The notes beneath the pieces were generated by a model. That model was not told where the DNA came from. It saw only the letters and a list, made by a program, of their open reading frames with translations, and did no database searches. The position numbers were made by a program, and so were the translations under genes. Below are positions 12,846 through 49,873 of a DNA stretch of 64,000 nucleotides, piece by piece (positions within the stretch are counted from its first letter, which is position 1; every line of letters starts with the position of its first letter). Source of the stretch: Aquimarina acroporae. Its GTDB lineage: Bacteria > Bacteroidota > Bacteroidia > Flavobacteriales > Flavobacteriaceae. Where the stretch lies: NCBI RefSeq assembly GCF_023195925.1, contig NZ_JALPRE010000007.1:124001-188000 (forward strand). Reading direction: 5' to 3'.

Positions 12846-13928
12846 TTAACTTCTTGCTACCTTTTTTTGGTGATTTATAGATTCCTGGTGAATCGCCTTA
12901 TAAATTCTAAGCATAAACTCTTCGCTCAACCCTTTTTCTTCTCCTTCAAGAATCATTTTACCCAGTATTTCATTCCATCTTTTTGACTGAAGGATAGCCA
13001 CATTTTGCTTTGCTTTTACTTTTCCTATCTCATCAGAAATTTTCATTCTTCTTGATAACACATCTAACAATTGATTATCTACAACATCTATCTTTGCTCT
13101 TAATTCACTTAGCGCTTTTTGGTAAGCTTCATCTACACCAACTTCTTTACGAATTTTTAAATCTTTCATATACTGAATCAATGTTTCTGGAGTAATTTGT
13201 TGTTTGGCGTCGCTCCATGCATTATCTGGATCATAATGTGTTTCGACAATTAATCCATCAAAATTAAGATCTAATGCCGTTTGAGACAGATCAAAAATCA
13301 AATCTCTTCTTCCTGCAATATGAGAAGGATCCAATATTAATGGTAAATCTGGAAAACGGTTTTGCAGATCAATAGGAATTTGCCATTCTGGAATATTACG
13401 ATATTTTGTTTTCTCATAGGTAGAAAAACCTCTATGAATAACTCCAAGGTTTTTAACATCGGCAGTATAGAAACGTTCTACCGCCCCTAACCAAAGAGAA
13501 AGATCTGGGTTTATAGGATTCTTGATCAGCACTGGATTATCGATTCCTTTACATGCATCAGCAATATCTTGCACGATAAATGGAGAAACTGTACTTCTTG
13601 CGCCAATCCAAAGTACATCGACACCATGGTCTAGCGCCAGTTCTACATGATGCGGATTTGCCACCTCTGTAGCTATCTTAAGTCCTGTTTCTTCTTTTGC
13701 TCTTTGTAACCATTTAAGACCTAATGCACCTACCCCTTCAAAATTACCTGGCCGGGTTCTAGGTTTCCATATACCAGCTCTTAAAACTGTGGCATCTGAA
13801 TCTTTAAGCTGATGCGCAATCTTTAATACCTGGTCTTCAGTTTCTGCACTACATGGTCCTCCGATCACCAGCGGGTGATCCAAATTATAATCATCTAACC
13901 ATGTTCTAAGTTCCTTCTTATTTTCCAT
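12846..13928 (-). CDS. Bifunctional DAHP synthase (type Ibeta) / chorismate mutase (AroQ type)
   Basis: 360 residues. The first about 255 form a DAHP synthase of the KDO8PS-like class (VIGGPCSAET at 20-29, LRAGIWKPRTRPGNFEG, ILDPSHIAGRRDL, ETHYDPDNAWSDAKQQI). The last about 90 form an AroQ chorismate mutase helix bundle (LRAKIDVVDNQLLDVLSRRMKISDEIGKVKAKQNVAILQ). The protein thus has the first shikimate-pathway activity and the first step of the Phe/Tyr branch. In family members with this fusion the mutase domain helps feedback control by prephenate or chorismate. Last gene of the pheA operon, 40 bases after tyrA, closed by the terminator at 12801. Confidence 0.95.
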   Translation of the reverse strand: MENKKELRTWLDDYNLDHPLVIGGPCSAETEDQVLKIAHQLKDSDATVLRAGIWKPRTRPGNFEGVGALGLKWLQRAKEETGLKIATEVANPHHVELALDHGVDVLWIGARSTVSPFIVQDIADACKGIDNPVLIKNPINPDLSLWLGAVERFYTADVKNLGVIHRGFSTYEKTKYRNIPEWQIPIDLQNRFPDLPLILDPSHIAGRRDLIFDLSQTALDLNFDGLIVETHYDPDNAWSDAKQQITPETLIQYMKDLKIRKEVGVDEAYQKALSELRAKIDVVDNQLLDVLSRRMKISDEIGKVKAKQNVAILQSKRWNEILGKMILEGEEKGLSEEFMLRIYKAIHQESINHQKKVARS

Positions 13929-13968: not shown

Positions 13969-14817
13969 TTATGAAATTCCTTTTAAAATTGTTTTTATGT
14001 GATTTGTATTTTCCATCTCTTTATATATTTCGTCAAAATCATCATTTTCCATGAACTCTTTAAATTGATTTAAGTTTGAAATATATTCTTGCAATGTCTC
14101 TATAACATTTTCTTTATTATGTTTGAATATTGGAGCCCACATCGCCGGAGAACTTTTTGCTAGCCGCACTGTCGAAGCAAAACCACTACCAGCCATATCA
14201 AAAATATCTCTCTCGTTTTTTTCTTTTTCTATCACTGTTTTACCCAGCATAAATGAACTAATATGCGACAAATGGGAAACATAAGCGATATGTTTATCAT
14301 GGGATACGGGATCCATATAGCGTATCCTCATACCTAATCGTGAAAAAATCTCCATCCCCTTTTCCTGAAGCTTAAATGCCGTTTTTTCTACTTCACAAAT
14401 GATGTTGGTTTTTCCTCTATACAAATTTGCTATTGCTGCTTGAGGGCCAGAAAATTCTGTTCCAGCAATAGGATGAGCAGCAAGATAATTCCTTCTTTTA
14501 GGATGACTCATAACAGTTTCGCAAAGCTTCTTCTTTGTCGATCCAACATCAAAAACCAAACAATCATCTTTTACTTTGTTTAGAATATCTGATAACACTT
14601 CTACCGTAGCATCTACTGGTATTGCTACGATCACCACATCGGCGAGATCTAATCCCTCAAAATTTGATTTATGATCTATCAAACCTAAGGAAAGAGCATT
14701 ATCTAAATGCTCCTCACTTTGATCTACTCCATAGATTTCTGCCTCGTTAAATGCTGCTTTTATGTCTATGGCAAACGACCCGCCAATTAACCCTATTCCA
14801 ACAATGAAAACTTTCAT
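13969..14817 (-). CDS. tyrA: Prephenate dehydrogenase
   Basis: 282 residues from the ATG at 14817; oxidises prephenate to 4-hydroxyphenylpyruvate for tyrosine. The N-terminal Rossmann motif GIGLIGGSFAIDI (about 6-18) is followed by VFDVGSTKK, AAHPIAGTEFSG (His of the active site) and the helical dimerisation part with HIAYVSHLSHISSFML. No ACT domain is present. The frame stays open to a TTG at 14850, which would overlap the aminotransferase gene; the ATG gives the normal MKVFIVGIGLIGG start and a 7-base gap. Confidence 0.94.
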   Translation of the reverse strand: MKVFIVGIGLIGGSFAIDIKAAFNEAEIYGVDQSEEHLDNALSLGLIDHKSNFEGLDLADVVIVAIPVDATVEVLSDILNKVKDDCLVFDVGSTKKKLCETVMSHPKRRNYLAAHPIAGTEFSGPQAAIANLYRGKTNIICEVEKTAFKLQEKGMEIFSRLGMRIRYMDPVSHDKHIAYVSHLSHISSFMLGKTVIEKEKNERDIFDMAGSGFASTVRLAKSSPAMWAPIFKHNKENVIETLQEYISNLNQFKEFMENDDFDEIYKEMENTNHIKTILKGIS

Positions 14818-14824
14818 CCTATTT

Positions 14825-16039
14825 CTATTTAGCAATACTTTTTTCTGCAATCTTTTGAGTTCCTATTGCACTAAGTAATTTATTAGTTTCCTTATCAAAT
14901 CTCCCAATAGCTTCCTTTATGTTTTCTTTGGTTACACATAATGAAAAACGAATATATCCTTTTCCGTTACTTCCAAAAATATCCCCTGGAGCTATGAATA
15001 TATCTTTTTTATACAAGATATAATCTATAAACGATACTGCATCTATTCCTTTTGGTAGTTTTGCCCAAACAAACATGCCTTTTGCACTCTTATCATAACT
15101 GCAACCTAAAAGGGAAGCTAATTCCCAAATCAATTCTCTTCTTTCTCGATATACAGCATTCATTTTCGTGTACCATTTATCTGAAATTTTTAATGCTGCA
15201 ATAGCTCCTTTTTGAATCCCTTGAAACATTCCGCTATCCATATTACTTTTCACTTTCAAAATGGCTTCAATTTTATCTAAACTTCCACTTACCATTCCTA
15301 CTCTCCAACCTGCCATATTGAAAGTTTTACTTAATGAATTAAGCTCTAGTGCAACTTCTTTTGCACCGGAGACAGACAAGATACTAGTGGGACTATCATT
15401 TAAAATAAAGCTGTAAGGATTATCTTTTACCAATAAAATTTGATGTTCTTTCGCAAAATTGATTAATTTTTCAAACAATGCTTTATTTCCTGAAGCCCCT
15501 GTAGGCATATGAGGATAATTGATCCACATAATTTTGACCTTGCTTAAATCTTTTTTAACGAGGCTTTCAAAATCTGGTTCCCAACCATTCTCATCCTTTA
15601 GATCATAATATACTGGTGTTGCGCCTACCAATTTTGTAACAGAAGTATATGTTGGATAACCTGGGTTTGGCACCAAAACCTCGTCTCCTTCATTAAGATA
15701 TGCCAATGAGATATGCATGATTCCTTCTTTGGAACCCATTAATGGCAAAATTTCATTTTTAGGATCAAGCTCTACATCATATTTGTCTTTGTAGAAATCT
15801 GCAATTGCCTCACGCAATTCTGGTAGTCCTTGATAACTTTGATATTTATGTGCCCCATCTACGACTACAGCATCCTTTATAGCCTGTACAACTTCTTGAG
15901 GAGGATCCAAATCAGGACTTCCGATAGCCATATTTAAAATTGGTTTTCCTGAAGCTGCCAACTCCCTAACCTCTCGTAGTTTCTTTGAGAAATAATACTC
16001 CTCTACCGATTCTAATCTTTTTGCTGTTTGAAAATTCAT
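14825..16039 (-). CDS. Aromatic-pathway class I/II aminotransferase
   Basis: 404 residues, PLP-dependent fold type I. Visible features are NMAIGSPDLDPP near the N-terminus, the NPGYPTY segment, the INYPHMPTGA region, and SLSKTFNMAGWRVGMVSG with the PLP lysine, then a C-terminal FIAPGDIFGSNGKGYIRFSL with the carboxylate-binding Arg. Its place between pheA and tyrA suggests transamination of phenylpyruvate/hydroxyphenylpyruvate (or prephenate). It looks like the LL-DAP/aspartate aminotransferase clade, so specificity is inferred from context. Its ATG overlaps the pheA TGA (ATGA), which indicates translational coupling. Confidence 0.9.
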   Translation of the reverse strand: MNFQTAKRLESVEEYYFSKKLREVRELAASGKPILNMAIGSPDLDPPQEVVQAIKDAVVVDGAHKYQSYQGLPELREAIADFYKDKYDVELDPKNEILPLMGSKEGIMHISLAYLNEGDEVLVPNPGYPTYTSVTKLVGATPVYYDLKDENGWEPDFESLVKKDLSKVKIMWINYPHMPTGASGNKALFEKLINFAKEHQILLVKDNPYSFILNDSPTSILSVSGAKEVALELNSLSKTFNMAGWRVGMVSGSLDKIEAILKVKSNMDSGMFQGIQKGAIAALKISDKWYTKMNAVYRERRELIWELASLLGCSYDKSAKGMFVWAKLPKGIDAVSFIDYILYKKDIFIAPGDIFGSNGKGYIRFSLCVTKENIKEAIGRFDKETNKLLSAIGTQKIAEKSIAK

Positions 16040-16866
16040 CCGTTTTGGTTTTTATATTCTCCTAATACTTTAAGCTCTAATGCCATAATTTTTAAAATTG
16101 ACATTGCCTTTTCATAGTCTGCATATTCATTAAAGGTGACATCTACAAAAAATGAATATTTCCATGGCATATCGATAATAGGTAACGATTGGATTTTGGT
16201 AAGGTTCAAATTACAATCACTCATTACATTTAATACCGTAGCCAAACTTCCTCTTTTATGATCTGTTAAGAACTTAAGCGATGCTTTATTAATATCAGTT
16301 TTACTAACCCCAGAATCTTCTCTTGTATGTAACACAAAAAAGCGTGTACTATTAGATTTAATCGTTTGTATTTCTCTAGCCAAAATTTCGAGCTGATAAA
16401 TATTTGCGGCAGTTTCACCTGCCACTGCCGCAACTCCAGTTAATTTTTTGTCATGAATTCTTTTAGCAACGTCTGCAGTATCTGCATCTTCGACCAATTT
16501 AATATGAGGATGCTCCCTAAAAAACTCCTTACATTGCAGCAACGCCATAGGATGTGAGTACACCTCTTTAATATCTGATATATTCTGACCCGGCAATGCC
16601 ATCAAACAATGATGAATTGGTAAGAAATACTCACCACTTATGGTTAGATCATGCTCATCAATGTAGGCATAATTTGGTATAATAGACCCTGCAATCGAGT
16701 TCTCTATAGCCATTACAGCATCTGTACTTTTTTGATTCTCCAGACTACGTACTAATTCCTGAAATGACATACATTCGTCTACATCTATGTTTTCTCCGAA
16801 ATAGGCTTGTGCAACACCATGATGATATGAACCTTTAATTCCTTGTATGGCTACTTTTTTGCTCAA
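16036..16866 (-). CDS. pheA: Prephenate dehydratase, monofunctional
   Basis: 276 residues. Converts prephenate to phenylpyruvate. The catalytic part (1-180) has VAIQGIKGSYHHGVAQAYFG, the AIENSIAGSI segment and the NSTRFFVL motif (Thr-Arg-Phe). A C-terminal ACT domain (about 190-270) has LTKIQSLPI, the Phe-binding ESRP-like position, here QSLP. No chorismate mutase is attached; that activity is on the DAHP synthase three genes downstream. The gene starts 21 bases after a T-run terminator in a leader that encodes a Phe-rich peptide (see 16887-17019), so transcription of the operon is probably set by charged tRNA-Phe. Confidence 0.96.
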   Translation of the reverse strand: MSKKVAIQGIKGSYHHGVAQAYFGENIDVDECMSFQELVRSLENQKSTDAVMAIENSIAGSIIPNYAYIDEHDLTISGEYFLPIHHCLMALPGQNISDIKEVYSHPMALLQCKEFFREHPHIKLVEDADTADVAKRIHDKKLTGVAAVAGETAANIYQLEILAREIQTIKSNSTRFFVLHTREDSGVSKTDINKASLKFLTDHKRGSLATVLNVMSDCNLNLTKIQSLPIIDMPWKYSFFVDVTFNEYADYEKAMSILKIMALELKVLGEYKNQNG

Positions 16867-16886: not shown

Positions 16887-16916
16887 AAAAAAAAATCCCG
16901 ACTTTTCAGCGGGATT
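16887..16916 (-). terminator. Attenuator terminator before pheA
   Basis: AATCCCG / CGGGATT stem with a 9-base loop, the stem running into a stretch of nine T on the minus strand, 21 bases before the pheA ATG. A strong intrinsic terminator just upstream of a gene indicates conditional read-through. Confidence 0.85.
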
Positions 16917-16941
16917 CTTATGATATGTTATTAACTAATAT

Positions 16942-17019
16942 TTACATAGCAATCCCGATCTTACTTTTAAAATAAAAGAAGAAAAAATAAAATCGGTTCC
17001 AAGTAAATACGTTACTCAT
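16942..17019 (-). CDS. pheL: Leader peptide of the phe/tyr operon (25 residues)
   Basis: ATG at 17019, TAA at 16942. The 25-residue peptide has 7 Phe, 2 Tyr and 1 Trp. Residues 10-17 read FYFFFFYF, an unbroken aromatic run, followed by KSKIGIAM. It sits directly upstream of the pheA terminator, and its codons 21-23 form the antiterminator arm. This composition and position fit a regulatory leader peptide whose translation reports Phe-tRNA (and perhaps Tyr-tRNA) charging. The ribosome-binding site is not a strong Shine-Dalgarno, as is usual in Bacteroidetes. The name is by function, not homology. Confidence 0.85.
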   Translation of the reverse strand: MSNVFTWNRFYFFFFYFKSKIGIAM

Positions 17020-17038
17020 TGTCTATTGTTTTACATTG

Positions 17039-17068
17039 CTAAAGTAGGTAAAAGTATCGCGATTCAAA
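17039..17068 (-). promoter_or_regulatory. Promoter of the pheL-pheA operon
   Basis: TTTG (17068-17065) and TACTTTAG (17046-17039), a -7 box with one mismatch, are separated by 18 bases. Predicted start near 17032, about 13 bases before the leader ATG. The remainder of the 344-base gap (17069-17210) shows no gene. Confidence 0.6.
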
Positions 17069-17210: not shown

Positions 17211-18398
17211 TCAAATCACTCCCAGCTCTTTACCCACTTTGGTAAATGCTTTTACTGCTTTTTCTAAATGATGTTGTTCATGTCCAGCCGATAATTGTAC
17301 TCTAATTCTTGCCTTACCCTTGGGAACGACTGGATAGAAAAACCCAATCACATAAATTCCTTCATCCAATAACTTTGCTGCAAAATCTTGTGCCAAAGTA
17401 GCCTCATATAACATCACGGGAACGATGGGATGGTCTCCTGGGATAATATCAAAACCTGCTTTACTCATTTCCGATCTAAAATACTTCGTATTTCTTTCGA
17501 GTTTATCTCTCAATTCTGTTGAAGAACTTAAAAGGTCCAACACCTTTATAGATGCTCCTACTATTGAAGGGGCAACGGTATTAGAAAACAAATACGGTCG
17601 GGAACGTTGGCGTAACATATCTACAATCTCTTTTCTTGCTGCCGTAAAACCTCCAGATGCTCCTCCTAGGGCTTTTCCATAGGTACCAGTAATGATATCT
17701 ATACGTCCCATTACATTTCTATATTCATGGGTACCTCTACCTGTTTTACCCAAAAACCCAGTAGAGTGACATTCGTCTATCATCACCATAGCACCGTACT
17801 TATCTGCCAGATCACAAATTTTATCTAACTGTGCTATAGTTCCATCCATAGAAAAAGAGCCGTCTGTAACGATTAATTTTCTTCGGCTTCCTTCTGCATC
17901 CTTTAATTGTTTTTCAAGGTCTACCATATTATTATGCTCATATCTTAGACGTTTTGCTTTACATAATCGGATTCCGTCTATGATAGATGCATGATTTAAT
18001 GCATCAGAAATAATCGCATCTTCGGGTCCCAAAATAGGCTCAAAAACCCCTCCATTTGCATCAAAAGCCGCAGCATATAAAATACAATCTTCCATCCCTA
18101 AAAACTCTGCAGTTTTTCTCTCTAGTTCTTTATGAATATCTTGGGTACCACAAATAAATCTCACAGATGATAATCCATACCCATGGGAATCAATAGCTTC
18201 TTTTCCTGCCTTTATCACATCTGGATGAGATGAAAGTCCTAAGTAGTTATTTGCACAAAAGTTTAAAACATGGGTGGTTTTGGTAGTATCGATCTCTGCT
18301 CCCTGCGGAGTAGTAATTATACGCTCAGACTTATATAGCCCAGCAGCTTTAATTTCATCAAGTTCTTTTTGTAAATCTTCTTTAATATTGGAAAACAT
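17211..18398 (-). CDS. kbl: Glycine C-acetyltransferase (2-amino-3-ketobutyrate CoA ligase)
   Basis: 395 residues, alpha-oxoamine synthase family, PLP-dependent. Cleaves 2-amino-3-ketobutyrate with CoA to glycine and acetyl-CoA. Visible motifs are [14 protein letters not shown] near residue 46, [34 protein letters not shown] (PLP-ring Asp/His region) and [14 protein letters not shown] with the PLP lysine. Together with the threonine dehydrogenase 47 bases upstream it forms the two-step threonine-to-glycine pathway. Confidence 0.95.
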
Positions 18399-28407: not shown

Positions 28408-31080
28408 TTATTCAATAACATTTGGGCTCAACCATTTTTGAGCATACTCGGGAGAAACATTTTTACGTTTAGCAAAATCCTGAACTTGATCATCTTTTAT
28501 TTTTCCAAGACCAAAATAACGAGCTTCCTGATTTCCAAAATAGTATCCAGAAACAGAAGCTGCCGGCCACATGGCTAAGCTTTCGGTTAACTCAACTCCT
28601 ATATTTTCTTTTACTTTTAACAACTCCCAAATAGTGAGTTTTTCGAGATGATCCGGACAGGCAGGATATCCAGGAGCAGGACGAATGCCTTTATATTCTT
28701 CTTTAATAAGCTCTTCATTGGTAAGATTTTCTTGGTTTGCATACCCCCAATGCTCCTTACGTATGTTCTCATGCAAATACTCGGCAAAAGCTTCTGCCAA
28801 CCTATCGGCTAAAGCCTTAATCATTATAGAGTTATAATCATCATGATCTGCTTCGAATTGCTTTGCAAGTTTTTCAGTTCCAAAACCAGCAGTCACACAA
28901 AAACATCCTATATAATCCTGAATTTCGCTTTCCTTAGGTGCAATAAAATCGGCTAATGCAAAATTAGGTTTCCCGGCATGTTTTTTAAGTTGTTGCCTTA
29001 GAGTTCTAAAACTAAAAACACCTTTCCCATTAAGCACTTCTATATCATCATCGTTTAATGTGTTGGCTTCAAACAATCCAAAAACTGCTTTTCCTTTAAG
29101 AAGCCTCTCATTTAAAACCTTGTTTAATAGTATTTTGGCATCATTAAATAAAACCTCTGCCTGCTCCCCTACTATTTCATCAGTTAATATCGCAGGATAT
29201 TTTCCATGAAGATCCCATGATCTAAAAAATGGGGTCCAATCGATATAAGGGAGTAACTTTTCTAAATCGAAATCCTCAATTACTTGAATTCCTAATTGAT
29301 TGGGTTTACTAATTTCTGAAGTTGTCCAATCAATTTTATATTTATTCTTTCGAGCTTCTTCTATGGACAAATATTCTTTTTGTTTGGTTCTCTTGAGAAA
29401 TCCATCTCTAAACTTTTCATAATTTTCCTTTAGATCTCCAATATATTTTTGATTACTTCTTTTGTTCAGTAAGTCTCCAACTACAGTTACAGCTCTGGAA
29501 GCATCATTTACATGAACAACAGCATTTTTATATTGCGGATCAATTTTCACTGCAGTATGCGCCTTAGAAGTTGTAGCTCCGCCAATTAACAATGGAATAT
29601 TGAAGTTTTTACGATCCATTTCTTTTGCCAAATACACCATTTCATCTAAAGACGGAGTTATAAGACCACTTAACCCTATAATATCAACTTGTTCGTCTAT
29701 GGCGGTTTGAATTATTTTTTCGGGAGGAACCATGACACCAAGATCAACGATCTCATAATTGTTACATCCTAATACCACTGAAACAATGTTTTTTCCAATA
29801 TCATGAACATCTCCCTTGACAGTAGCCATCAGTATTTTTCCATTTGACTCTGTAACAGTTCCTTTATCTTCTTCAATAAAGGGCAATAAATAAGCTACGG
29901 CTTTTTTCATCACTCTAGCCGATTTTACCACCTGAGGTAAAAACATTTTCCCTGAACCAAAAAGATCACCAACAACATTCATCCCAGTCATTAAATGCCC
30001 CTCTATAACTTCGATAGGCTTATCAACATTTTGTCTCGCTTCTTCTACGTCTTCTTCTATAAATTGATCTATTCCTTTTACCAGAGCCCTTGTAATTCTA
30101 TTCTGCAAGGGTTCCTCTCTCCAAGAAAGGTCAACTGTTTTTTCTTTTTTAGACCCTTTTACTGTTTCTGCAACATCTAATAACCTTTCTGTAGCATCGG
30201 CTCTTCTATCAAGAATTACATCTTCTACATATTCCAATAAATCTTTAGGGATATCATCATACACTTCCAGCATAGCAGGGTTAACAATACCTATATTCAT
30301 GCCGGCTTTAATAGCATGATACAGAAATACCGAATGCATAGCTTCTCTTACAACGTTATTCCCTCTAAAGGAAAATGACACATTACTCACCCCTCCACTG
30401 ACACTACAATGCGGCAGATTTTGTCTTACCCAACGAGTAGCTTCAATAAAATCAACTGCATTTTTGCGATGCTCCTCCATACCTGTAGCTACAGGAAAAA
30501 TATTTAAATCAAAAATGATATCTTCTGGTGGAAATTTGACCTTATTTACCAACACCTCATAGGATCTTTTGGCGATTTCGATTCTACGCTCATAATTATC
30601 GGCCTGTCCAACTTCATCAAATGCCATTACAATTACAGCAGCTCCATAGCGTTTTATAGCTTTTGCATGTTTAACGAATTCTTCCTCTCCTTCTTTTAAA
30701 CTGATGGAGTTGACTACGCATTTTCCTTGCACCACTTGTAGACCTGCTTCTATGATTTCCCATTTGGAGCTATCGATCATGATGGGTACCCGAGCAATAT
30801 CAGGCTCTGCTACAATCAAATTCAAGAATTTGACCATTGCTTCTTTACCGTCTATTAATCCATCATCCATATTGATATCGATGATCTGTGCCCCTCCTTC
30901 TACTTGATGCCTGGCAATAGAAAGTGCTTCTTCATAATTCTCTTCTTTAATTAATCGAAGAAATTTACGAGATCCTGCTACGTTTGTTCGTTCCCCAACA
31001 TTTACGAAGTTAGATTCGGGAGTGATTACCAGAGGTTCCAATCCTGACAGTTTCATGTATCGTACTGACTCTTTATTCAT
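28408..31080 (-). CDS. metH: Cobalamin-dependent methionine synthase, folate/B12/activation part
   Basis: 890 residues from the ATG at 31080 ([13 protein letters not shown]). Pterin-binding domain (about 15-300; [16 protein letters not shown]), B12 cap (about 310-410), B12-binding Rossmann domain with [10 protein letters not shown] (His ligand of cobalt, about 450) and [13 protein letters not shown], then the SAM-binding reactivation domain (about 590-890; [12 protein letters not shown]). The homocysteine domain is encoded by the separate upstream gene, 2 bases away. A longer frame to 31170 would overlap that gene and lacks homology. It is the B12-dependent final step of methionine synthesis, so MetE-independent. 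Confidence 0.95.
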
Positions 31081-31082
31081 AA

Positions 31083-32084
31083 TTATACTGCTACACTTAC
31101 TAAACGTGGTTTGTAATCTTTTACTAAATCTGCTATTGCTTCTATATGCTCTGGTGTGGTTCCACAACATCCTCCTACTATATTGACCAAACTCTTATCT
31201 AAATATTCTTTTATTTGAGTCGCCATTTGTTCAGGCGTTTCATCATACTCCCCAAAGGCATTAGGTAAACCAGCATTAGGGTGAGCAGACACCGCAAAAG
31301 GTGCTTTTTGAGATAACACCTCCAAGTGAGGTGTTAGTTGATTTGCCCCCAAGGCACAGTTAAACCCTATAGATAACATAGGAATATGTGAAACTGAAAT
31401 CAAAAAAGCCTCTGCCGTTTGACCAGACAACGTTCTACCACTAGCATCGGTAATCGTTCCACTGACCATAATTGGGATGTCAATTTCTCGTTCGTCTTTA
31501 ACCTCTTCTATGGCAAAAAGAGCAGCTTTAGCATTTAAAGTATCAAAAACTGTTTCAACCAGCAATATATCCGCGCCTCCATCGATTAAAGCTTCTACCT
31601 GTTGCTTATATGCTATTTTTAGTTCATCAAAACTCACAGCCCTGTATCCCGGATCATTAACATCTGGAGACATACTTGCTGTTTTGTTTGTTGGGCCAAT
31701 AGAGCCAGCAACAAAACGTGGTTTGTAAGGTTCTTTTGCTGTAAACTCATCTGCGACTTCTTTTGCAATTTTTGCAGACTGGTAATTTAATTCATACACC
31801 AAATCCTCCATTTCATAATCTGCCATTGCTATAGTAGTTCCAGAAAAAGTATTAGTCTCAACGATATCTGCCCCAGCTTCAAAATATAATTTATGCACCT
31901 CTTTTATAGCTTCGGGCTGTGTAATACTTAATAAGTCATTGTTCCCTTGAAGAGGTGTAGGCCAGTCTTTAAATCGTTCACCTCTAAAATCTTCTTCAGT
32001 AAACTTATGACGTTGTAGCATTGTTCCCATTGCTCCATCAAGTACAAGGATTTTTTCTTCTAGTATTTGTCTTATATCTTTCAT
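31083..32084 (-). CDS. metH: Methionine synthase, homocysteine-binding part
   Basis: 333 residues from the ATG at 32084 (the frame also opens at a TTG at 32093). Zn/homocysteine S-methyltransferase barrel: [13 protein letters not shown] at 10-22, then the zinc cysteines in [10 protein letters not shown] and [11 protein letters not shown]. It supplies the homocysteine-activating half of MetH, the rest being the next gene. The split falls exactly between the homocysteine and folate domains and both halves have normal starts and stops, so it is a stable two-gene form known from other Bacteroidetes, not a frameshift. Confidence 0.94.
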
Positions 32085-32197
32085 ATCAATCAAACTACAT
32101 TATGCTTTATAAACTCTATTTCTCAGTAAACATCATATACCAAAAACCTGGTTGTTACCTACAACTTACAGCAATAAATACAAATCAAGAAAAATGG

Positions 32198-32220: not shown

Positions 32221-32226
32221 ATCTTC

Positions 32227-32332
32227 GTTATCTATTCCTACAAAACAATCGGATAGAATGTAGCACCTTCTTTAACAGATAAAGGGTTGCTAAGGCTTCA
32301 CGGGGTCTATTCCCTCCACCTTTCTTGATAAC
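32227..32332 (-). ncRNA. SAM-I (S-box) riboswitch upstream of metH
   Basis: Minus-strand RNA with the S-box core in order: P1 GTTATC (32332-32327), AAGAAAGGTGGAGGGA, the GACCCCGTGAAGCC segment, TTAGCAACC, a small P3 hairpin, AAGGTGCTA, and the P1 partner GATAAC (32232-32227). These are the conserved SAM-I positions. It lies 142 bases before the metH homocysteine gene and would lower metH-DinB-metF expression when SAM is high. Nearly the same core occurs at 48182-48287. Confidence 0.92.
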
Positions 32333-32351
32333 ATTTAATACTTTAATGAAC

Positions 32352-46763: not shown

Positions 46764-48053
46764 TTACTTAACTGCCGCATTCACTTTTTCAAAAGCAGCC
46801 TGTAAATCATCTTTTAAATCTTCTATATCCTCAAGACCAACAGACAATCTTATCAAATCCTGAGTTACTCCTGTAGATTCTTGTTGTTCTTCAGTTAACT
46901 GTTGATGTGTTGTACTTGCCGGATGAATAATGAGCGACTTAGAATCTCCAATATTTGCCAACAGTGAAAATATTTTAGTCTCATCGGCTATTGTTTTGGC
47001 AGAATCAAACCCTCCCTTAACACCGAAAGTGACAATACCGCTTTGTCCTTTGGGCAAATATTCTTGAGATAAAGAATAATAAGTATCATTCTCTAATCCC
47101 GGATATTTAACCCAAGCAACTTCTTTTTGCTTTTCCAGCCACTTGGCTAATGCCAAAGCGTTCTCACTATGTTTCTTAATTCTGATTTCTAAAGTTTCTA
47201 ATCCCTGTAAAATTTGAAATGCATTGAATGGGCTTAGTGCTGCTCCGTGATCCCTTAATCCTTCTACTCTTACTTTAGCAATAAATGCTGCTGGACCTAA
47301 GGCTTCATGATATACTAAACCATGATATCCCTGAGAAGGTTCTGTAAATTCAGGAAATTTGCCACTCGACCAATCGAATGTACCTGCATCTATTATCGCT
47401 CCTCCTAACGAAGTTCCATTCCCGCTTATATACTTAGTTAATGAATGAATAACGATATTCGCGCCATGTTCGATAGGGTTAAGCAAAGCAGGTGTAGCCA
47501 CTGTATTGTCTACAATTAGCGGCACTTTATATGATTTTGCTTCTTTTGCTATTGCTTTTAAATCCAAAACATCCAGTTTAGGATTTCCCAAAGATTCTAC
47601 AAAAAACACTCTGGTGTTTTCTTGTACAGCATTTTTAAAATTTTCTGGTTTAGATGCATCTACAAAGGTTGTCGTAATACCAAATCTAGGCAAAGTAACA
47701 TTAAGAAGATTATAGGTTCCCCCATACAGACTACTTGAAGCCACTATATGATCTCCTGATTTCAACAATGTTAACAAAGCTGTATTAATAGCAGCTGTAC
47801 CCGATGCAGTAACAACTGCACCAATCCCTCCTTCTAGAGATGCCAAACGTTGTTCTAAGATGTCATTGGTTGGGTTATTTAATCTTGTATAAATAAACCC
47901 TGGTTCAGAGAGACTAAACAAATTGGCCGCATGATCGGCGTTATTAAACACATAAGAAGTTGTTTGATAAATAGGAATTGCTCGTGTTCCTCCATTTGCT
48001 GAGACATCATGTCCTGCGTGTAAAGCTCCTGTAGCAAATTTTTGCGTACTCAT
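46764..48053 (-). CDS. metY: O-acetylhomoserine sulfhydrylase
   Basis: 429 residues, PLP-dependent. FATGALHAGHDVSANGGTRAIPIYQTTSYVF at the N-terminus, YTRLNNPTNDILEQRLASLEGG, VESLGNPKLDVLDL and the PLP lysine in IHSLTKYISGNGTSLGG, the form typical of MetY. It makes homocysteine from O-acetylhomoserine and sulfide. It is the first gene after the SAM-I riboswitch. Both MetY and MetZ are in this operon with only one acyltransferase. Confidence 0.95.
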   Translation of the reverse strand: MSTQKFATGALHAGHDVSANGGTRAIPIYQTTSYVFNNADHAANLFSLSEPGFIYTRLNNPTNDILEQRLASLEGGIGAVVTASGTAAINTALLTLLKSGDHIVASSSLYGGTYNLLNVTLPRFGITTTFVDASKPENFKNAVQENTRVFFVESLGNPKLDVLDLKAIAKEAKSYKVPLIVDNTVATPALLNPIEHGANIVIHSLTKYISGNGTSLGGAIIDAGTFDWSSGKFPEFTEPSQGYHGLVYHEALGPAAFIAKVRVEGLRDHGAALSPFNAFQILQGLETLEIRIKKHSENALALAKWLEKQKEVAWVKYPGLENDTYYSLSQEYLPKGQSGIVTFGVKGGFDSAKTIADETKIFSLLANIGDSKSLIIHPASTTHQQLTEEQQESTGVTQDLIRLSVGLEDIEDLKDDLQAAFEKVNAAVK

Positions 48054-48181
48054 AATTTTCTAATTTAAATTTTAATATTGATTTTAAAATTCAAATACAT
48101 CAAACATTCAAAACCTCTGAATGGATTATAGAAAATTAAAAAGAAAGGAAATGACAAATTACCGGATGAGTAATTATGTCG

Positions 48182-48287
48182 AGTTATCTTTTCCTGAATA
48201 ATCAGGATAGAATTTAGCACCTTCTTTAACGATTAAAGGGTTGCTAAGGTTTCACAGGGTCTATTCCCTCCACCTTTCTTAATAACT
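48182..48287 (-). ncRNA. SAM-I (S-box) riboswitch upstream of metY
   Basis: Minus-strand core: P1 AGTTAT (48287-48282), AAGAAAGGTGGAGGGA, a GACCCTGTGAAACC segment, TTAGCAACC, P3 hairpin, AAGGTGCTA, and the P1 partner ATAACT (48187-48182). It is nearly identical to the element before metH. It lies 128 bases before the metY ATG; in between, AATTAC / GTAATT could form a small hairpin after the aptamer, without a clear T-run, so the control mode is unclear. Confidence 0.92.
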
Positions 48288-48433
48288 TACTAAAAATGTA
48301 TAAGAAACTTTGGAACAAAGCTAGTAATATTTTTTAAACTGTAACAAACTACACACAAAAAATATATACTTTGGAAAAATACTCTTGAAAAAGCTCATAA
48401 ATTTATTGATGAATTAATGATACGTTAAATACT

Positions 48434-48462: not shown

Positions 48463-48474
48463 CCGAAATATTTT

Positions 48475-48545
48475 CAGGGAGAGATTTGGCTGATTGCAAC
48501 CCATAATACAATACATGACGTATTAAAAATGCTAAAGCAGTTCGG
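48475..48545 (+). ncRNA. SAM-II-like leader element of metK
   Basis: The start of the metK 5' UTR has, in order, a GGG / CCC stem (48477-48479 and 48500-48502), GAGATTTG (48481-48488), TTGCA (48494-48498), an extra AATAC / GTATT hairpin (48510-48514 and 48520-48524), and AAAAATGCTAAAGCAG (48525-48540). SAM-II riboswitches have GATTTG, a short loop, TTGCA, then AAA-x-GCTAAA, with a pseudoknot between the loop and the 3' end. Here GGCTG (48488-48492) can pair with CAGTT (48538-48542). The match is by motif and context; a hairpin TTCGGT / ACCGAA (48541-48565) overlaps the pseudoknot arm and could be the switch. P1 is short, so the class is not certain. Confidence 0.6.
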
Positions 48546-48616
48546 TAATATTTAGTTTGACCGAAAGGTTCGTATCGCAATTTCGTCTTATCCCACTGAC
48601 AAAACAACAAAAAAGA

Positions 48617-49873
48617 ATGGCATATTTATTTACTTCGGAAAGTGTATCTGAAGGACATCCAGATAAAGTAGCAGATCAAATAAGTGACGCTTTATTAGAT
48701 AATTTTTTAGCTTTTGATCCAGATTCAAAAGTTGCTTGTGAAACACTAGTTACTACAGGTCAGGTTGTTCTTGCTGGAGAAGTGAAATCTAAAACATATT
48801 TAGACGTTCAGCACATCGCCAGAGATGTAATTAATAAAATTGGGTACACCAAAGGTGCCTATCAGTTTAGTGGTGATTCATGTGGTGTTATCTCGCTAAT
48901 ACATGAACAATCCCAGGATATCAATCAAGGTGTAGATCGCGAAACTAAGGAAGAGCAAGGTGCTGGTGACCAAGGGATGATGTTTGGTTATGCTTCTAAA
49001 GAAACATCAAACTACATGCCTCTAGCTCTAGATATATCCCATAAAATATTAATAGAGCTTGCGAAACTAAGACGAGAAGGAAAAGAAATTCCATATCTTC
49101 GTCCAGATTCTAAAAGCCAGGTTACTATAGAATATAGCGACGATAATATACCGCAACGCATTGTTGCTATTGTGGTTTCTACCCAACATGATGATTTTGA
49201 TGCAAATGACGATACCATGTTGGCCAAAATCAAGAGTGATATTATTTCTATCTTGATGCCAAGAGTTATTGCTCAATTACCAGATTATGTTCAGAAATTG
49301 TTTAATGATAAAATCACTTATCATATCAATCCAACCGGTAAATTTGTAATTGGTGGACCGCATGGAGATACTGGACTTACTGGAAGAAAAATTATCGTTG
49401 ACACCTATGGTGGAAAAGGAGCTCATGGAGGTGGTGCTTTTTCTGGAAAAGATCCAAGTAAAGTAGATCGATCTGCGGCGTACGCTTCTAGACATATTGC
49501 CAAAAACCTTGTTGCCGCAGGAATTGCAAACGAAGTACTAGTACAGGTGTCATATGCTATTGGAGTGGTGGAACCTACATCTATTTTTGTAGATACCTAC
49601 GGAAGTAGCAAATTAGGGTTAACTGATGGTGAAATCGCTGAAAAAGTTGGGCAAATTTTTGATATGCGCCCTGCCGCTATTGAGGACCGCCTTAAATTAA
49701 GAAATCCTATTTATCAAGAAACTGCTGCTTACGGCCACATGGGTAAAGAACCTAAGATCGTTAAAAAGGTCTTTAACAGCCCTTATTCTGGCAATATCGA
49801 AAAAGAAGTTGAGTTATTCACATGGGAAAAACTAGACTATGTAGATGCCGTAAAAGCAGCTTTCAATATATAG
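48617..49873 (+). CDS. metK: S-adenosylmethionine synthetase
   Basis: 418 residues from the ATG at 48617. [23 protein letters not shown] at 5-27 (split here over the methionine- and ATP-binding loop), [23 protein letters not shown], and [17 protein letters not shown] with [22 protein letters not shown], the P-loop-like lysine region. It makes SAM from methionine and ATP. The frame extends upstream to 48557, but that part overlaps leader structure and [10 protein letters not shown] is the family start. Divergent from the metY operon. Confidence 0.97.

Follow-up and report, generated by a model that had tools for sequence, protein, structure and literature searches.

In the proteobacterial pheA/pheL attenuator, represented in Rfam by RF01859 (Phe_leader), a leader with Phe codons precedes competing antiterminator and terminator structures upstream of pheA. 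Attenuators from the Bacteroidota may, reportedly, have been listed by Lopatovskaya et al. in 2010. According to the portion of PMC2965389 available to us, no leader-peptide system was known in 2010 outside the Proteobacteria and Actinobacteria before the authors' own case from the Firmicutes. Within the Bacteroidota, the Rfam element Bacteroid-trp is tabulated in the extract of PMC2864571 (Table 1), and for Bacteroides thetaiotaomicron the extract of PMC7366714 mentions long 5' UTRs whose short ORFs are reminiscent of leader peptides, with pheA unmentioned there. For Flavobacterium psychrophilum, the accessible sections of a 2021 paper (PMC9723704) report a conserved structured 5' element before pheA, without an Rfam match, which is also present in other Flavobacteriaceae genera, and strong clues for leader-peptide attenuation of amino acid operons.

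Anatomy and distribution of the pheA leader

The locus described here lies in a 64,000-nucleotide stretch of Aquimarina acroporae DNA, referred to throughout as the window. On its minus strand, a promoter-like site, a leader ORF, an intrinsic terminator and pheA follow one another (Table 1). This is the order given by the original prediction, with the promoter being a candidate. The 25-codon ORF with the run FYFFFFYF that had been claimed is present as well; its peptide contains 7 Phe, 2 Tyr and 1 Trp, the control codons are F5, W7 and F10-F17, and it is the sole ORF of 12-45 codons with at least seven Phe/Tyr in nine codons on either strand of the 64-kb window. When the 500 nt before pheA were dinucleotide-shuffled, an ORF with seven of nine arose in 1 of 2,000 shuffles, and one with eight of nine in none of the 2,000. 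The terminator and T-run, also claimed beforehand, were found at 16916-16887 as AATCCCG/CGGGATT with nine T, and every segment listed in that prediction could be located. Both the terminator helix and the 1:2 helix appear in the minimum-energy RNA fold of this region (z = -3.1; equally good shuffles, 1/200).

Table 1. Features of the pheA locus in the window, and leader peptides elsewhere in the same genome
Feature	Position	Strand	Remarks
Upstream gene	17211-18398	-	Pfam Aminotran_1_2; ends ~290 nt before hairpin
Candidate promoter TTG-N18-TACTTTAG	17067-17039	-	one mismatch to TAnnTTTG
Leader peptide ORF MSNVFTWNRFYFFFFYFKSKIGIAM	17019-16942	-	25 aa; stop TAA at 16944-16942
Segment 1 CCGATTTTATTTT	16996-16984	-	within control codons; can pair with AAAAGTAAGATCGG (16968-16955) in untranslated RNA
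Segment 2 ATCGGGATT	16959-16951	-	antiterminator 5' arm; last leader codons
Intrinsic terminator	16919-16887	-	hairpin and T-run; 20 nt before pheA
Segment 3 AATCCCG	16916-16910	-	common to antiterminator and terminator
Segment 4 CGGGATT	16900-16894	-	terminator 3' arm
T-run of terminator	16895-16887	-	nine T; overlaps end of segment 4
pheA, prephenate dehydratase	16036-16866	-	PF00800
Class I/II aminotransferase	14825-16039	-	PF00155; overlaps pheA end
tyrA, prephenate dehydrogenase	13969-14850	-	PF02153, PF20463
DAHP synthase-chorismate mutase fusion	12846-13928	-	PF00793, PF01817
His leader MKNLFVHHHHSYIFAQAW			before hisG (L165)
Trp leader MRTILANNWWWSSRNENVVN			before trpE (L166); RF01692 Bacteroid-trp match, 67.4 bits
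Ile/Val leader MSIVKNNSINVIIIVVIRSP			before ilvD (L167)

Judged by its Pfam content, the operon downstream of the leader produces Phe and Tyr. The gene upstream of the candidate promoter is one that we take to be a 2-amino-3-ketobutyrate CoA ligase.

Relatives were collected by a GTDB scan with PheA, from which the best 80 of 297 confirmed loci were used. Loci L001-L053 are Aquimarina or, in two cases, Flavobacteriaceae lacking a genus name, and the remaining loci are mostly other Flavobacteriaceae. All 80 loci listed had an aromatic ORF before pheA under a loose rule (at least four aromatics in eight codons), a terminator by automated scan and an aminotransferase match after pheA, and 79 of them had a tyrA match somewhere in the locus. 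Under the strict rule (seven Phe/Tyr in nine codons), an ORF was found on the sense strand within 500 nt of pheA at 77 of the 80 loci listed, versus one such ORF per 571,514 strand-nt in the remainder of the same loci. The terminator lies no more than 270 nt from pheA at 79 of the 80; at L038 it is further upstream and was recovered by a wider scan. Between the terminator stem and the beginning of the PheA match there are 7 to 162 nt (79 of the 80). At L054-L062 and L064 (Flavobacteriaceae, some of them labeled Formosa), the stem ends 7 nt before the PheA match, which is unusually close.

A sample of the phylum comprised 158 genomes including that of A. acroporae, of which 138 had a PheA match, and the upstream region was taken from 40. 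The automated scan was positive at 15/15 loci from the family, 0/2 from the order, 14/17 from the class and 4/6 from the outer phylum. Taken together, the window, the 80 loci and these 40 yielded a leader and terminator in 114 of 121 upstream regions. At L100 and L101, two of the negative loci, there is no space for a leader, since pheA directly follows another gene, presumably aroA. A further class sample of 80 genomes contained 23 PheA matches, 15 of them new; seven of the new loci (L146, L149, L150, L152, L153, L155 and L156) were positive by the automated scan, L147, L148 and L154 were positive upon reading the sequence, and the element was absent from L143, L144, L145, L151 and L157. For the class as a whole, the element was present at 25 of 32 loci, 21 of them automated calls; the 57 of the 80 class-sample genomes without a PheA match at threshold are uninformative.

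Two class-level loci carry tandem aromatic leader ORFs. At L114, which failed the automated scan, a terminator-like hairpin follows only the second ORF, and at L116 one follows each.

The six outer-phylum loci had the highest scores among 103 matches from the outer phylum. The PheA proteins of the four positives are 44-46% identical to the query, and those of the two negatives 40%. Twenty further outer-phylum loci, chosen down the list rather than at random and with PheA at 33-40% identity, gave an aromatic ORF with a terminator in 0/20, one of them, L126, having an aromatic ORF alone. Together with the two negatives, the element was found at 0/22 outer-phylum loci whose PheA is distant, and it thus tends to accompany the Bacteroidia-type PheA. 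Searches of phage collections (near mode) and plasmid collections (distant mode) gave no match.

Upstream of the leader, TACTTTAG agrees at five of the six specified bases with TAnnTTTG, the flavobacterial sigma-A -7 box, which the accessible part of PMC9723704 places at -12 to -5; from that placement, transcription is predicted to start at ~17034. A relaxed version of the site (TTG-N16..21-TAnnTT[TAC][GCA], no more than 110 nt before the leader) was found at 79 of the 114 loci versus 7.7% of mononucleotide shuffles, and 54 of the 114 had the relaxed site with an 18-nt spacer. Generic sigma-70 and terminator scans of the window reported neither the candidate promoter nor the pheA terminator, and therefore provide no support for either.

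Within the Aquimarina group, the leaders with an intact FYFFFFYF (37 of 54) are nearly invariant at third codon positions too. Block codons 4 and 5 are TTC in 37/37 and 36/37 of these leaders, respectively. The fixed TTC codons may act as breaks in an otherwise poly-U stretch, or they may contribute to the 1:2 stem.

Covariation of the stems and predicted dependence on ribosome position

Segments 2, 3 and 4 change in concert between lineages, e.g., GGGATT/AATCCC/GGGATT, GGGACT/AGTCCC/GGGACT, GAGACT/AGTCTC/GAGGCT and AGGATT/AATCCT/AGGATT. Scored over 37 groups, the 2:3 pairing had a mean of 19.5 for a lineage's own segments versus 13.9 (sd 0.5) when they were swapped between lineages, with no overlap in 200 derangements. 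A lineage's own pairing was the better one in 34 of the 37 groups and was no better than the swapped pairing for L089, L119 and L120. At 94 of the 114 loci, the 2:3 score was above the 95th percentile of shuffled versions of region 2; at L059 there are mismatches and the fold fails.

Alignment-based measures depended upon how the rows were aligned. On the first free MAFFT alignment (A1; 51 rows), in which the spacer between the ORF end and the hairpin is poorly conserved, the 2:3 stem did not rise above shuffles by any measure (72.8% versus 74.9% paired, 8 versus 13.0 double-change cells, and a covariation score of 0.180 versus 0.229), because segment 3 is misaligned between lineages. On the same alignment, 3:4 passed on cells paired and double-change cells, and failed on pair counts and types. 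A further alignment (A3) came from a covariance model that knew the 3:4 stem only, and consists of 90 matches in 89 sources, a count that includes three off-target rows (L040 minus strand, L034 minus strand and L052:904). On A3, 2:3 was 85.3% paired versus 81.7% in shuffles, with 29 versus 9.9 +/- 2.4 double-change cells and a covariation score of 0.201 versus 0.143 (each 0/500); the numbers of both-sides-changed pairs and of pair types did not exceed those in shuffles (46/500 and 227/500, respectively). Such shuffles ignore the relatedness of rows, which slid controls preserve, and 2:3 was above all six slid versions for percentage paired, double-change cells and covariation (three of five measures). 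For 3:4, A3 gave 41 double-change cells versus 6.6 in shuffles, in an alignment fitted to 3:4 itself. The 1:2 stem on A1 was 77.7% paired versus 75.2% (0/500), with 22 versus 13.5 double-change cells (1/500), which lends it a degree of support, but by folding it is not general, segment 2 being held upstream at just 35 of 114 loci.

The alignment of related Flavobacteriaceae pheA loci that had been proposed as a check thus bears out a conserved aromatic leader ORF and stems with compensatory changes. As for the full 1:2/2:3/3:4 switch of the original prediction, the 2:3 and 3:4 pairings are conserved with compensatory changes, and 1:2 is found in the window and is not a general feature.

We then predicted folds of the RNA truncated after segment 3, with a ribosome mask extending 12 nt beyond the A-site codon, the downstream footprint of the ribosome being given as ~12 nt in the accessible text of PMC4833913. 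In the window, placing the A site on codons 5-16 gives a predicted 2:3 probability of 0.98; at F17 the value is 0.85, and from K18 to the stop it is no more than 0.01. A ribosome at the first four codons also gives 0.77-0.86, and the model by itself therefore does not pick out the aromatic codons. Across the loci, the maximum over the aromatic codons exceeded 0.5 at 113 of 114, the failing locus being L059, and the value at the stop codon was below 0.1 at 114 of 114; these results follow in part from the search itself, which took as segment 2 the best complement located after the aromatic run. The last aromatic codon and segment 2 are separated by 10.8 nt with an sd of 2.2 (negative distances were excluded by the search), and the corresponding distance measured from the stop codon has an sd of 7.9, with the stop preceding segment 2 at 16 of the 114 loci. 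So little variance in the former distance is expected if a ribosome covering ~12 nt downstream sets the switch.

Without a ribosome, segment 2 of the window is held upstream with a probability of 0.43 and 2:3 has one of 0.08. Segment 2 is held upstream with a probability above 0.5 at just 35 of 114 loci (28/54 in the Aquimarina group and 7/60 of the others), and termination without translation may therefore be lineage-specific. In full-length equilibrium folds of the window, the terminator is always favored (probability of 3:4 at least 0.95), which implies that, in this model, antitermination would depend on kinetics.

Proposed mechanism and alternative explanations

The element is real and functional-looking, and its mechanism is well supported by sequence, which provides a control-codon ORF, an intrinsic terminator and an antiterminator that is mutually exclusive with the terminator; dependence on ribosome position appears in the computations, where it is partly built in. 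We consider it very probable, from the sequences and folding models, that the element belongs to the trp/phe/his type of ribosome-mediated transcription attenuators. RNA synthesis would begin at ~17034, and a ribosome would translate the 25-codon leader behind RNA polymerase. With ample charged tRNA-Phe, and probably tRNA-Tyr, the ribosome would clear the aromatic run and, at the stop codon, cover segment 2, so that the 3:4 terminator forms and transcription halts before pheA. A ribosome stalled on an aromatic codon would leave segment 2 free; its pairing with segment 3 would precede the synthesis of segment 4, and polymerase would continue into the genes for PheA, the aminotransferase, TyrA and the DAHP synthase-chorismate mutase.

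All 114 leaders contain both Phe and Tyr, and 67 of them a Trp codon. On average, Tyr accounts for 0.32 of Phe plus Tyr in all leaders; for the class sample the figure is 0.47, and for the four leaders from the outer phylum it is 0.45. As the run was selected for its aromatic content, its composition is no independent evidence. Sensing of Phe is very likely. Tyr is likely to be sensed too, joint Phe/Tyr sensing being favored by the Tyr in every leader and the tyrA gene in the operon, and sensing of Trp is possible.

Another explanation would be that the hairpin merely terminates transcription of the upstream gene, which is on the same strand and ends ~290 nt before it, and that the aromatic ORF is a chance product of U-rich intergenic DNA. 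We regard this as very unlikely, given the rarity of such ORFs away from pheA compared with their presence at 77 of the 80 upstream regions listed, the covariation of the terminator arm with a segment 2 that lies in or just after the ORF, the nearly constant distance between the control codons and segment 2, and the promoter-like site between the upstream gene and the ORF. Nor does it seem at all probable that the hairpin acts on translation by hiding the pheA start. The start in the window, only 20 nt past the T-run, would suit such a role, but the wide range of distances from stem to PheA match (79 of the 80 loci listed) and the hairpin further up at L038 would not, and neither would the plain run of nine T in the window. 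The search rule demanded a T-run, so its presence in the relatives is no independent evidence.

A structured leader ahead of an amino acid operon could also be a ligand- or tRNA-binding riboswitch, similar to a T-box, with the ORF being incidental. This is exceedingly improbable in our judgment, since no Rfam family reached its gathering score on the window segment or on the pheA loci of 12 relatives that were scanned, and since the spacer from the ORF end to the hairpin is so poorly conserved.

Other leaders in the genome and comparison with known systems

In the same genome, cognate leaders with terminators precede hisG (HHHH), trpE (WWW) and ilvD (an Ile/Val run). For thrA there was no terminator, and for pheS there was a terminator without a Phe-rich ORF, so that a cognate leader was found at three of the five genes tried. 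The 2:3 pairing is clear at ilvD (equally good shuffles, 1/500) and moderate at hisG (22/500). At trpE, where the search for 2:3 covered just the 5' half of the hairpin, pairing was no better than in shuffles (494/500 as good). The ilvD leader is itself preceded by another ORF rich in Ile and Val, MKAKNINISTVSIVEVIISS.

Elsewhere in the window, two classes of SAM riboswitch are arranged back to back. An S-box at 48181-48288 (-) faces the gene at 46764-48053, presumably an O-acetylhomoserine sulfhydrylase, and a SAM-II element at 48470-48545 (+), whose 44.1 bits are barely above the cut-off of 44, faces the gene at 48557-49873, which we assume to be metK. Another S-box is located at 32225-32334 (-), before genes 31083-32093 and 28408-31170, which look to us like a two-gene metH.

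A broader interpretation, for which we see the arguments as evenly balanced, is that the attenuator is ancient and has been inherited class-wide with the Bacteroidia-type pheA-aminotransferase operon, where it would sense in one leader how far tRNA-Phe and tRNA-Tyr, and tRNA-Trp in many lineages, are charged. One sensor would then set the flux to all the aromatics by way of an operon containing DAHP synthase, and, taking the His, Trp and Ile/Val leaders of this genome into account, these bacteria would by default control amino acid synthesis through leader-peptide attenuation.

Two Rfam models matched the window weakly, well below their gathering scores: RF01859 (Phe_leader) reached 17.1 bits against 55 (E 2.7), and RF00513 (Trp_leader) 20.1 bits against 41 (E 0.11). 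RF01692 (Bacteroid-trp) had no match to the window segment. Like the present element, Bacteroid-trp has a leader peptide and belongs to an aromatic amino acid operon of this phylum, but its control codons are for Trp, unlike the Phe/Tyr run described here. The F. psychrophilum element concerns the same gene and the same family, and the available text of PMC9723704 on it gives no leader peptide, switch or distribution beyond the family. Since Flavobacterium cellulosilyticum (L071) has our element, that of F. psychrophilum, as far as the accessible account goes, is probably identical to it.

The mechanism is therefore a textbook one, and its use in the Bacteroidota is partly known. A complete Phe attenuator in a flavobacterium, which the original prediction had singled out, is supported, but it has precedents in the phylum, namely Bacteroid-trp, with its match in the same genome, and the accessible account in PMC9723704. 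We found no paper recognizable as describing this Phe/Tyr leader peptide in the literature searched, in which the Phe/Tyr element with its class-wide spread appears to be undescribed. It represents a well-supported RNA element outside Rfam, from a phylum in which amino acid control has received little attention, and the sequences suffice for an Rfam family. It also offers a predicted amino-acid-responsive leader for laboratory flavobacteria and, if the mechanism is true, would mean that, in these Bacteroidota, the coupling between transcription and translation is tight enough to permit attenuation.

In its proposed working principle, the element is the same as the proteobacterial pheA/pheL attenuator. 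It differs in that the 1:2 stem is not general among its relatives, in its mixed Phe and Tyr codons, and in an operon that also includes tyrA and the DAHP synthase-chorismate mutase.
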